DNA from: Arthrobacter sp. ok362
GTDB taxonomy: Bacteria; Actinomycetota; Actinomycetes; Actinomycetales; Micrococcaceae
Assembly (NCBI RefSeq): GCF_900102785.1
Contig: NZ_FNGC01000020.1
Location: forward strand, 1-64,000
Direction of reading: 5' to 3'
DNA: 64,000 nucleotides
The first letter of the stretch is position 1; the number at the start of each line of letters is the position of its first letter. Below, piece after piece: positions 771-42,037 of this stretch. The translations under genes were made by a program, and so were the position numbers. The notes under the pieces are model-generated. The model worked only from the letters and a program-made list of their open reading frames with translations, was not told where the DNA came from and made no database searches.

Positions 771-1216
771 GTCGGGCAACCCATCAGTAGTCGGAACAAG
801 TTCGCTTGCCCTCAGGTCGAAAGGCAAGACGCTCGCCACTGACGCTCCAGTAAGTCGCGGCCGTCATCGCCCGGCAAATACTCCTATCAGGTGGAAACCA
901 TTGTCAGTCCTTCGGCTGCATCTGCCATAGGCTCCGAAGCTGTGAATATCCTGAGGAAATCGCGGGTGGGCCCGTCCGTGCCCGGGATGCGGTTCGGAAT
1001 CTGCTCGAGGCCTCCCTGACGGCGGGACAGGCCCTCCTCCGGCGTTCAGGGATGGACATAAGCCCACTGTGTCCATCCCTGCGCCGCCCCGAGGGACATG
1101 TCCATTCCGCGAGGGGGACATGTCCAATCGAGCGCAACCAGCCACAGGTTGCGGTCCGCCACGCGCACCGAGCCACAAAGCCCTGGCTTGGCGGGGCCAG
1201 CCCTAGAATGGTCACG
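771..1216. other. Intergenic region with promoters and one repeat copy
   Basis: This 446-bp gap separates the leftward peptidase from the rightward STAS-like gene. It must hold both promoters. It also holds one copy of the GGACATGTCC-type repeat at about 1053-1115. I see no convincing coding sequence; the open frames here lack ribosome sites and recognisable protein. Confidence 0.5.
1053..1115 (+). repeat. GGACATGTCC-type dispersed repeat, copy C
   Basis: An imperfect dyad (GGACA-N11-TGTCC, about 1053-1073) is followed after a GC-rich spacer by two GGACATGTCC palindromes. The order and spacing (21-bp dyad, spacer of about 17-18 bp, GGRCATGTCC) match the copies at 39999-40048 and 41829-41878. 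The leading GACATGCYCATTCTTG block of those copies is missing here. It lies about 100 bp upstream of the STAS-like gene. Function unknown. Confidence 0.65.
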
Positions 1217-1636: not shown

Positions 1637-1659
1637 CAGTTCCGGCCTGCTCCCTGCGG

Positions 1660-2553
1660 TTAGGCCTTGTCCACCGTAGTCGCTGCCTCGGCCTCCTTGA
1701 CCTGCCGGTTGGTCGCGGCCCAGCTGGCCAGCAGCCGCAGCGCGTCCTCCGACGCGGAGCCGGGCTCGGCGTTGTAGACCAGCAGGGACAGCCCGGCGTC
1801 GGCCGAGACATCCAAAGCTTCGAACATCAGGTGGAGCTCCCCGACCACCGGGTGGTGGAAGTGCTTGAGCCCCGTATAGTGCTGGCGCACGTTGTGCGCG
1901 GCCCACAGGGTGCGGAATTCCTCGCTACGGGTCGATAGCTCGCCGACCAGGTCGGTCAGCCCCCGGTCGAAGGGGTCCCTGCCGGCCTCGGTGCGCAGGA
2001 TCGCGACGGTGTCGTTCGCCGCACGCTCCCAGTCCGGGTAGAAGCTGCGCGAGCGGCCGTCCAGGAAGATGAAGCGGGCATGGTTAGCCGGGCGGCCCGG
2101 TCCCACATACATGTCCGAATACAGGGCATAGCCCAGCGGGTTGGCGGCAATGATGTCCATGCGTCCATTCCGGACAAAGGCGGGCGCGTTGGTGATTGCG
2201 TTCAGCGTCAGCTGAACGCTCCGTCGGACGGACTCCGCGGGACGGGGACGACGGCGGGTCCGGCTGCCCGGGGCCGCCGCCCGGGCCAAGTCGAAGAGGT
2301 GGGCGCGTTCGGCGTCGTCGAGCTGCAGAGCTCTTGCCACCGCATCCAGCACACCTTCCGAAACGCCGGACAGGATTCCCCGCTCCAGCCGGGTGTAATA
2401 CTCGACGCTGACGCCGGCCAGCATCGCGACTTCCCCGCGACGCAGCCCCGGCACCCGGCGCTTGGCGCCGTAGACCGGCAGCCCCGACTGCTCGGGGGTG
2501 ATCTTGGCCCGGCGCGAGGCAAGGAATTCGCGGGTCGCGTCTCGATTGTCCAT
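1660..2553 (-). CDS. XRE/MmyB-family transcriptional regulator
   Basis: A 297-residue regulator. Residues about 8-75 form an XRE-type helix-turn-helix (LRRGEVAMLAGVSVEYYTRLERG), and about 100-285 match the MmyB-like ligand domain (ANPLGYALYSDMY, FYPDWERAANDTVAILR, VRQHYTGLKHFHHPVVGEL). Family members sense small, possibly lipid-like ligands and usually control a neighbouring oxidoreductase. It is divergent from the alcohol dehydrogenase at 2698, with 144 bp and a 9-bp inverted repeat between them, so it probably regulates that gene and itself. That link is inference from position. Confidence 0.9.
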   Translation of the reverse strand: MDNRDATREFLASRRAKITPEQSGLPVYGAKRRVPGLRRGEVAMLAGVSVEYYTRLERGILSGVSEGVLDAVARALQLDDAERAHLFDLARAAAPGSRTRRRPRPAESVRRSVQLTLNAITNAPAFVRNGRMDIIAANPLGYALYSDMYVGPGRPANHARFIFLDGRSRSFYPDWERAANDTVAILRTEAGRDPFDRGLTDLVGELSTRSEEFRTLWAAHNVRQHYTGLKHFHHPVVGELHLMFEALDVSADAGLSLLVYNAEPGSASEDALRLLASWAATNRQVKEAEAATTVDKA

Positions 2554-30714: not shown

Positions 30715-30840
30715 GCCGGGAGCCTTTCAGAGAATGGGGGGCGGGCGGGGAAGGAATCTTCCGGAGCAACTTTACCGCGCACGGTCTTACCGCCCGCTTC
30801 CCGGGGCGGGACCGGTCCGTGTGCGCCGGACCGGACATCA

Positions 30841-30900
30841 CGGTGTTCGACGTCACAGTGTTCGAGGTCACAGTGTTCGACGTCACAGTGTTCGACGTCA
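30841..30900. repeat. Four tandem 15-bp repeats between uraA and reductase
   Basis: CAGTGTTCGACGTCA occurs four times head to tail with single-base changes (first copy CGGTG, second GAGGTCA). The repeats lie in the divergent region between the permease and the reductase genes, roughly 125 bp from each start. They are neither coding nor CRISPR-like (no spacers). They may be a binding-site array or a slippage product. Confidence 0.85.
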
Positions 30901-30996
30901 CAGGGGAAGGGGGAAGCAGACGCGGCTGGTTGAAGTTGCAACTAAGGACAGCAGAAGAAGCCGGCCGCCAGATGGTGCGCGGGCACAGGGAAAGGG

Positions 30997-39966: not shown

Positions 39967-40255
39967 GGGGGACATGCTCATTCTTGGCGCCCGCGGGTGG
40001 ACAAGATGGCATTGTGCCCAGCGGCCGCGGCAAGGAGTGGGCATGTCCCCGGTGAGCGCTGGACATGTCCCGTGTGCGGCGTGCGGAGTGGGCATGTCCT
40101 CAGCGGTGGAGGTTGGACATGTGGCAGTTGGGCATGTCCCGTGTGCGGCGTGGGGAGTGGGCACGTCCTCAGCGGTGGAGGTTGGACATGTCCCTTGTTC
40201 GACCTGCGCTCCGAACATGTCCCGTGCTCGGCGTGAGGGGCGGGCATGTCCCGGG
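39967..40255 (+). repeat. GGACATGTCC-type repeat array, copy A
   Basis: The left 79 bp (39971-40049) aligns without gaps to copy B at 41801-41879 at roughly 80 percent identity. It contains the 21-bp imperfect dyad at 39999-40019. To its right are nine more GGRCATGTCC half-sites starting at 40039, 40061, 40090, 40115, 40130, 40159, 40184, 40213 and 40242. The part 40061-40129 is repeated as 40130-40198 (69-bp unit). It fills the gap between the alcohol dehydrogenase and amidase genes. Not CRISPR: units are palindromic and spacers repeat. Confidence 0.85.
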
Positions 40256-40273: not shown

Positions 40274-41845
40274 CTAGAACCCCAGTTGGGCGGCCACCTG
40301 GAGCAGCAGCCCCTCGGAGCCTATTGGCCCGATTAGCTGGATGCCCATCGGCAGGCCCGAACCGGCGGCGCCGCCGGTCCAGTGCACCGGGATACTGATT
40401 GCCGGCAGCCCGCAGACGTTCACCATGGACGACCACGGCGCGTATTCGCACTGTTTGCGGTAGTCGTCGTCGGCGTCGCCGGCCCATTCTGCGGCCGGCC
40501 AGTAGTCCCCGCCGTGGGTCGCGCCCGTGAACCAGCCCACCGGGCGGGGCGTCTGCGCCAAGGCCGGCGTAACTATGAGGTCCCATTGGGCGTACTGGGC
40601 GATCGTGTCGCGCTGGAACTGCCGGAGGAACCCGACGGATTCATTGACTTTGGCCGCACTGCGTTGCTGTGCGCGCCGGCGGAACGTCCTTGTGAGCGGG
40701 GTCAGGAGCGCCTCGCGCTGGGGTGAGATTCGCGCGCTGCCAATGCCGGCGGTCCAGGCAGTGGTGAAGGCGTCCGGGTAGCGGTTGTCATAGCGAATCG
40801 CGGCCGCCGACGTCTCGTGTCCCGCCGCCTCCAGCCGCGCGACGCCGTCGGCCAGCGCCTCGAGCGCCTCCCGGTCCGGGACGAAAGGGAACATTGATTG
40901 CCAGGGGCTGTCGAGGCTCATCCCGATCCGCAGCCGGCGCGGCTCCCTGGCGGTCAGTTCGAGATAGCCGGCGTGCGCGCCGCCGACCGCGGCCTGCCTG
41001 TCCGCACTTTGTTGGCCCGGTCCTTGCGGGGTCGCACCGGGCATCAGGGCATCGAGCAACAGGGCGGCATCGGCGGCGGAGCGGGCGAGCGGTCCGGCAA
41101 CCACGAGCTGGGCGGGATCGCCCGCGCTTTCCCCGGCCGGCACGAGCCCGCGTCCGGGCTTCAGCCCGACCAGCCCGCACGCCGCGGCCGGGATCCGCAC
41201 GGAGCCGCCGCCGTCGGACCCGGGGGCGAACGGCAACAGCCCCGCGGCCACGGCGGCAGCGCTGCCGCCCGAGGAGCCGCCCGAACTGCGGCTGAGTGCA
41301 TGCGGATTACGCGACGGCGGAGCGACCCGGTTCTCGCTGTAGGCCGTCAGGCCGAACTCCGGGACCTGAGTCTTGCCCAGCGAGATGACCCCCGCAGTCT
41401 TGAGCGCGACGGGAAGCGCGCCGTCGGCCAGCGCCGGTTTGCGCTCCAGGGCGGCGCTGCCATGCGTGGTCACGACCCCTGCCACATCCGTCAGGTCCTT
41501 GAAGGCGACCGGCATTCCATGCAGCGCGGGCAGAGCGCCGCCGTTCCGGCTCCGGAGGGCGTGGAGCCGGTCCGCCGCCGCGGCGTCCTTCTGCGCCTGT
41601 TCCGCGGTGACGGTAATGAAGGCCCCGAGGTGCGGATTTTGGGCTTCGATGCGGTCCAGGAAGTGATCGGTGGACTGCCTGGCGGACAGCTCCCCGGATC
41701 GGAGCGCGTCGCGGAGCTGGACGGCGGAGAGTTCGTGGATCTCAGCCAAGGAGGCGGGACTCCAGCCGTTCCCCGGGCTGCGCGGCGTGGATCCCGGGGG
41801 GACATGCCCATTCTTGCGCACCGCGGAAGGACACAATGGCATCAT
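40274..41845 (-). CDS. Amidase (AS family), 5' end interrupted by a repeat
   Basis: An amidase-signature hydrolase of about 523 residues. The catalytic Lys is in AFKDLTD, the Ser-rich loop is SSGGSSGGSAAAVAAG and the nucleophile is in GSDGGGSVRIPAA. It hydrolyses amides to acids and ammonia; the substrate is unknown. In the current sequence the longest frame starts at ATG 41845, inside the 85-bp repeat. A much better start (ATG 41927 with AAGGAG) lies upstream but out of frame, and removing 85 nt (41798-41882) joins them. Expression may therefore be lost or altered. Confidence 0.85.
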   Translation of the reverse strand: MMPLCPSAVRKNGHVPPGSTPRSPGNGWSPASLAEIHELSAVQLRDALRSGELSARQSTDHFLDRIEAQNPHLGAFITVTAEQAQKDAAAADRLHALRSRNGGALPALHGMPVAFKDLTDVAGVVTTHGSAALERKPALADGALPVALKTAGVISLGKTQVPEFGLTAYSENRVAPPSRNPHALSRSSGGSSGGSAAAVAAGLLPFAPGSDGGGSVRIPAAACGLVGLKPGRGLVPAGESAGDPAQLVVAGPLARSAADAALLLDALMPGATPQGPGQQSADRQAAVGGAHAGYLELTAREPRRLRIGMSLDSPWQSMFPFVPDREALEALADGVARLEAAGHETSAAAIRYDNRYPDAFTTAWTAGIGSARISPQREALLTPLTRTFRRRAQQRSAAKVNESVGFLRQFQRDTIAQYAQWDLIVTPALAQTPRPVGWFTGATHGGDYWPAAEWAGDADDDYRKQCEYAPWSSMVNVCGLPAISIPVHWTGGAAGSGLPMGIQLIGPIGSEGLLLQVAAQLGF

Positions 41846-41882
41846 GTCCAGCGCTCGCGGCCAGGGGAGGGCATGTCCCGTG
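41798..41882 (+). repeat. GGACATGTCC-type repeat inserted in the amidase gene, copy B
   Basis: An 85-bp element: GACATGCCCATTCTTG, a 21-bp imperfect dyad (41829-41849), a GC-rich spacer and GGGCATGTCC (41869-41878). It aligns without gaps to the start of array A. It lies in the amidase 5' end, 45 nt after the natural ATG at 41927. Its length is 1 mod 3, as needed to explain the present frameshift. Confidence 0.85.
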
Positions 41883-42037
41883 GCGGGGGCCGCGGACGGG
41901 CCGCTCCGCGGGGTGTTCGGCAGCCATCAGGTCTCCTTTGCGGTCTCCAGAAGCGTAACCTGCCGCCAGCGTGGGCGCCCTGGAAGCGGCGGGGGATACG
42001 CTGGGATCGGAGCTTGAATTCCGCGGAAAGGGTGAAC

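Follow-up and report, generated by a model that had tools for sequence, protein, structure and literature searches.

The window analysed here, a stretch of 64,000 nt from Arthrobacter sp. ok362 (contig NZ_FNGC01000020.1), carries on its minus strand an amidase gene at 40274-41749, whose most likely start is TTG 41749 rather than ATG 41845. The product is a member of Pfam family PF01425 (286.8 bits against a cut-off of 27, E 4.4e-85), and its closest relatives are found in Arthrobacter sp. Bi26, ES3-54 and ov407. Directly upstream on the same strand lies a leader ORF of 61 codons (41742-41927), which runs from ATG 41927 to a TGA at 41744-41742 that overlaps TTG 41749. The initial annotation had noted a strong start at ATG 41927 with the ribosome-binding site AAGGAG; this is present as AAAGGAG (41933-41939, minus strand). 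Further upstream on the minus strand is a GTTACGCT box (41952-41959), a putative promoter -10 region found before most leader ORFs and before pepE in 12 of the 24 loci that have this gene. The divergent rhodanese-domain gene that follows (PF00581; 42038-42364, plus strand) serves as a syntenic anchor. Within the leader ORF, and in frame with it, lies a full copy of a palindromic element. The frame from ATG 41927 had been described as running out; in fact it stays open through the repeat until the TGA on TTG 41749.

A dispersed repeat of 85 bp had been placed at 41798-41882, and a dispersed repeat is indeed present there, with a core of 79 bp at 41800-41878 in forward orientation on the plus strand. 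This core is an imperfect palindrome built from site A (41800-41809), half-site B (41829-41834), half-site B' (41844-41849) and site A' (41869-41878), giving four ATGTCC-type sites at constant spacing. A second full copy lies downstream of the amidase (39970-40048, plus strand) and is followed to about 40251 by an array of short GGACATGTCC-type sites (40060-40251, no strand assigned), several of which are 29 bp apart (40183, 40212 and 40241). With up to three mismatches allowed, the central 21-mer has one match in the window besides its own, against an expectation of 0.00 from shuffles. A further half-element and a pair of GGGACATGTCC sites are found at 1070-1126, and a 15-bp tandem repeat, TCACAGTGTTCGACG, extends over about five units at 30838-30912. 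At the L009 locus (1501-1745), an element copy lies between a tRNA gene (1092-1176, minus strand) and the gene for the bacterial small SRP RNA (1649-1745, plus strand), about 60 nt before the latter. GGACATGTCC is the same as a p53 test site used in several papers, which is taken as coincidence; among the open PMC papers listed as containing it, several concern p53 sites and none is bacterial by title. The titles and abstract openings listed from open PMC held nothing on the repeat itself.

BLAST with the element against its own genome (G000) gave 35 matches; these include at least three places that matched on both strands and so appear twice. Defined as site A, then 17-19 bases, then half-site B, the half-element pattern was found at 104 places in this genome; the gap between A and B is exactly 18 nt in 95 of these, as it is in 38 of the 41 half-elements in G031. 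Among 67 distinct copies collected, 61 are exactly 79 nt long, four are 78 and two are 80; the pattern used for this collection set the three spacers at 18-26, 5-11 and 17-26 nt, which by design excludes a first spacer shorter than 18. The four sites are near-invariant across the collected copies, which partly reflects how the pattern was built. Identity between the spacers of different copies is only 49%, yet the element length is fixed.

The half-element counts in five genomes were 104 (G000), 72 (G010), 41 (G031), 1 (G016) and 0 (G020), and the pattern read backwards was found 0 times in four of them and once in G016. When 245 genomes of the family were scanned, five had at least 19 matches (G000, G031, G143, G163 and G243), all of them among the 18 genomes of the own genus, and every other genome had 0 to 2. 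BLAST over 59 relatives found the element in nine, own genome included, all again in the own genus. The element family is confined to part of the genus Arthrobacter. Three further sites with copies were searched in 12 genomes; the L016 site was read in 11, including G000, and the L026 site in G019 and G000. The L016 site lies between convergent genes and holds a single copy in G000, G031 and G032, a mutated form in G019, and two near-identical copies in G014, G024 and G010. No copy is present there in G028, G020, G016 and G036; in these four the alignment is largely confined to the left flank, and they do not count as clean empty sites. Tandem neighbours are 81-99% identical (14 pairs) and copies that share a site across genomes 65-87%, identities from which local copy number would appear to change by tandem duplication and homogenisation.

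The palindromic layout raised the question of an RNA hairpin, acting as a terminator or 5'-UTR regulator that controls the amidase. The transcribed strand does fold better than shuffles (-43.2 kcal/mol, z -3.4), which may be explained by the arms alone, and single pairs covary: 19/61 (z 3.5), 24/56 (z 2.3), 29/51 (z 4.6) and 38/42 (z 3.7), the last two belonging to the central part. The outer sites hardly vary and so are uninformative on covariation. Against a hairpin, spacer positions 11-28/52-69, taken together, showed no excess of pairing in the 61 copies (-0.027), no better than shifted registers, element length is constant despite the divergent spacers, and no Rfam family reached its gathering score at the element. 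A hairpin role is thus considered quite improbable. Assignment to a known RNA family was also rejected, the two weak Rfam matches being located elsewhere and far below the cut-offs of their families. The element most likely acts instead as a set of double-stranded sites, at which a protein would bind the four ATGTCC motifs at their fixed spacing.

How the copies were spread was considered by comparison with known mobile repeats. REP/BIME elements are dispersed, mostly extragenic repeats that form tandem arrays with homogenisation, and the Arthrobacter element is likewise dispersed, mostly extragenic and found in homogenised tandem arrays. It differs from them in having four sites at fixed spacing rather than one hairpin, with no overall stem covariation. 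The Y1 transposase (PF01797) was absent from all seven element-bearing genomes among the 39 searched (element-bearing G031 and G032 lie outside these 39), with 5 of 14 controls positive. Given this absence from the seven genomes and the lack of overall compensatory changes, REP/RAYT membership and mobilisation by a RAYT were rejected. The comparison with REP/BIME elements also drew on the available part of PMC2817692. MITEs and enterobacterial RU elements are described, in the parts of PMC10969869 and PMC2759123 that were available, as short, non-autonomous elements with inverted terminal symmetry that are occasionally intragenic; to that extent the Arthrobacter element resembles them in being short and non-autonomous, in its terminal symmetry and in its occasional intragenic position. 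It could accordingly be a minimal MITE, in which two transposase-end modules (A-B and B'-A') stand back to back and were once moved by a transposase since lost or undetected. Its inverted symmetry, fixed module length, dispersed copies and occupation of the amidase site in one clade only agree with such an origin. However, no target duplication was seen by eye at the insertion, where divergence of the empty sites blurs the exact junctions, a full-length element bounded by these ends was not noticed among the half-elements listed from five genomes, and the Y1 transposase, the one family searched, is missing as stated. The MITE origin is retained as a possible but rather doubtful account. At its L026 site, G019 has an extra segment of about 1 kb, which was considered as a candidate parent transposon and rejected, since it reads like ordinary gene sequence.

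To place the start of the amidase, the own locus was compared with those of 80 named relatives, giving 81 loci. In 24 of these a peptidase S51 gene (pepE) directly precedes the amidase, in 43 a leader ORF ends on the overlapping TGA, in 11 the amidase is fused, being in frame with an upstream start (L075, L094, L102, L106, L111, L122, L123, L126, L128, L129 and L131), and 3 are of other structure. The codon at the position of TTG 41749 is TTG, GTG or ATG in all 70 unfused loci. The 11 fused loci never have one of these three there, but GGG, CCC, CTG (two), ACC, ACA, AGC or CCG. Moreover, position 1 of NCBIfam model PRK07042 aligns to residue 1 of the protein starting at TTG 41749, at a score below the model's cut-off, and a GGAG is present upstream of this TTG. 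In the repeat-bearing loci L083, L089 and L117, a stop in the amidase frame ends 3-6 nt before the downstream NTG, and a start inside the repeat is therefore unusable there. These comparisons suggest that the amidase is most likely intact and starts at TTG 41749, downstream of the repeat.

The initial annotation had read the locus differently: the repeat would have been inserted into an amidase gene that began at ATG 41927, broken its frame, and left the gene to start at an ATG within the repeat (ATG 41845). ATG 41845 is in the amidase frame, most repeat-bearing loci have an amidase-frame NTG in the repeat region, and fused amidases do exist in 11 of the 81 loci. Removal of 85 nt does join ATG 41927 to the amidase frame, as had been claimed. 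This is true by arithmetic, but no ancestral state is restored by it, because the frame of pepE itself already differs by one from that of the amidase. Any deletion with a length of 1 modulo 3 joins the two frames, so the fit of 85 nt is an accident with a chance of about one in three. The same offset is found in 24 of 24 pepE loci and in leaders without the repeat, and none of the 11 fused loci belongs to the repeat-bearing clade. Together with the NTG kept in unfused loci and lost in fused ones, and the stops between repeat and amidase start in three relatives, this makes a broken amidase very unlikely. An amidase N-terminus that reads through MMPLCPSAVRKNGHVPP would be at odds with the start at TTG 41749, and a start call at the ATG inside the repeat would mis-annotate the gene.

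The origin of the leader becomes apparent from the loci in which pepE is present. In L068 and L069, the start region of pepE matches the sequence around ATG 41927, with box and ribosome-binding site alike, and the leader end GERLESRLLG* matches the pepE end EERLEPRFLG*. G000:C32:41745-41879 shares 60% identity with residues 240-284 of the pepE product of L070. The pepE stop overlaps the amidase start in 23 of the pepE loci; in the 24th, L134 from Paenarthrobacter, pepE ends just upstream, and this locus was assigned by hand after the first test had recognised 23. Of the 23 recognised automatically, 22 have the opposite-strand rhodanese gene further upstream, the exception being cut at a contig end, and the own locus has this same gene. 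From these matches, ATG 41927 is identified as the old pepE start and the leader as a pepE stub. The protein of L070 belongs to the Peptidase S51 family (99.4 bits against PF03575, cut-off 23.9), and its score of 21.8 against the NCBIfam pepE equivalog (cut-off 156) does not fix the exact enzyme, so that the gene is best called pepE-like. The presence and absence of pepE needs 9 changes on the amidase tree. No pepE was found elsewhere in G000, G019, G032, G010 or G024. In repeat-bearing G014 and G031, a pepE lies about 26-27 kb from the amidase (G014:C55:17942-18634 and G031:C1:3679195-3679899), and was therefore moved or duplicated there rather than simply lost; the match of these distant genes stops before the insert region.

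Of the 57 loci without pepE, 54 have either a coupled ORF or a fusion. The automatic start finder called 37 coupled leaders, 11 fusions and 3 others among them and left 6 uncalled (a seventh uncalled locus, L134, has pepE). By hand, one of the others and five of the uncalled loci were placed with the coupled leaders and the uncalled L115 with the others, which makes 6 manual placements among the 43 leader starts; another 10 are simply the first ATG and lack a ribosome-binding site. The lengths of all 43 leaders are 1 modulo 3 and take 20 different values between 13 and 295 nt. Related loci do not count as independent cases, but no new length can arise without an insertion or deletion. The three misfits are L083, whose leader stops 3 nt before its GTG, L089, which stops 92 nt before, and L115, whose start is ambiguous. 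Selection on the leader peptide was rejected, as substitutions are not concentrated at third positions (ungapped comparison of four equal-length leaders in six pairs, plus one further pair). Between the own locus and L063, substitutions at the three codon positions number 9/7/8 in the leader and 47/49/71 in the first 900 nt of the amidase; against L065 they number 7/7/11 and 34/16/65, respectively. The frame and the terminating codon are kept and the peptide is not, and these frame statistics suggest translational coupling.

It might also be supposed that the leader is an unselected deletion scar, its frame kept by chance and the amidase translated from TTG 41749 by way of its own GGAG. The missing third-position bias would be expected of a scar, and L089 and L115 do not keep the frame. 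Shuffled leaders of six loci were open in 22-45% of trials; an open frame thus often arises by chance in GC-rich leaders, which leaves the frame offset as the one strong piece of evidence. It is this offset, held over 20 distinct lengths, that speaks against a scar, along with the 9 tree changes in pepE and the 54 of 57 pepE-less loci that remain coupled or fused. A scar is regarded as unlikely, and a stub kept in frame for coupling is preferred.

The element was scored as recognisable where two or more arms, or the complete pattern, lie within 350 nt upstream of the amidase; 21 of the 22 loci in one clade qualify, and 0 of the 59 outside it. The earlier claim that the repeat is mobile or was copied in is borne out as to copying, the same site lacking it in relatives. 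On the tree, which was built from the amidase gene and not from species, this clade has a support of 100/94, and the distribution of the element at this site takes two changes, interpreted as a single gain and a single loss, the latter in L124. In several relatives (e.g., L081, L087 and L113) the leader holds two tandem copies 105 nt apart. L070, from Arthrobacter sp. SO5, sits inside the repeat-bearing clade and has a pepE gene (L070 1654-2508) with the element in frame near its 3' end (L070 2372-2450). The gene is otherwise intact, and the element falls at about residues 240-266, past the end of the S51 domain (38-209). An extra arm is also found just before the element. Because pepE is intact around an in-frame repeat in L070, insertion probably predates the loss of pepE. 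The simplest order would be insertion into pepE first, followed by loss of the pepE body; alternatively, L070 could have regained pepE by recombination. As the frame from ATG 41927 is that of pepE, it was pepE, and now its relic, that the repeat changed, and not the amidase as had been proposed.

Rickettsia palindromic elements are small palindromic repeats of about 150 bp that lie in frame in protein-coding genes, according to the available portion of PMC10969869. On that description they show the closest described behaviour, with a palindrome in frame in a gene, in this case pepE of L070, where it lies outside the catalytic domain. The present element differs in its size of 79 bp and its occurrence in Actinomycetota. 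Rickettsia elements are recognised by in-frame insertion in many unrelated genes, and here one coding site, pepE, was found; the other copies examined in G000 look extragenic. In six G000 loci the open frame of the downstream gene extends back through the copy, yet none of 21 loci gave a convincing in-frame copy within another gene, and a crude codon-composition test covering 21 of 30 loci found no copy with a coding signal running in from upstream.

Taken as a whole, the locus is quite probably explained by an in-frame repeat in pepE, loss of pepE to a stub, and an amidase that starts at TTG 41749. In the clade's ancestor, a copy of the element would have been inserted, in frame, into the 3' end of pepE. 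An internal deletion would then have removed pepE from this place in most lineages of the clade, so that what is left is a short leader ORF made of the pepE start codon, the element and the final pepE codons. Ribosomes translating pepE or its relic may stop at the TGA and reinitiate at the overlapping TTG 41749, and this need for reinitiation would keep the stub in frame although its peptide is not conserved. In translationally coupled leader ORFs and overlapping operon genes, an upstream stop overlaps a weak start. The arrangement here is the same (TTGGCTGA), as it is between pepE and the amidase; it differs in that the leader of this locus would be the relic of a lost operon gene that carries a repeat. 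A bolder version is offered tentatively and is more doubtful than not: that pepE was lost repeatedly in the genus, that the stub is selected solely to deliver ribosomes to a weak TTG and has absorbed one or two repeat copies only in frame-preserving sizes, and that the repeat is a double-stranded site array with a periodicity of 29 bp for an Arthrobacter protein that also drives its spread.

Read in this way, an apparent gene disruption becomes a clear record of gene loss, in which an operon partner was removed repeatedly. The pepE frame, kept as a stub or fused where it was not kept, would provide a natural test of translational coupling. The element adds to the small palindromic repeats an actinobacterial family whose four sites stand at fixed spacing and which has a single insertion in frame in a coding gene.
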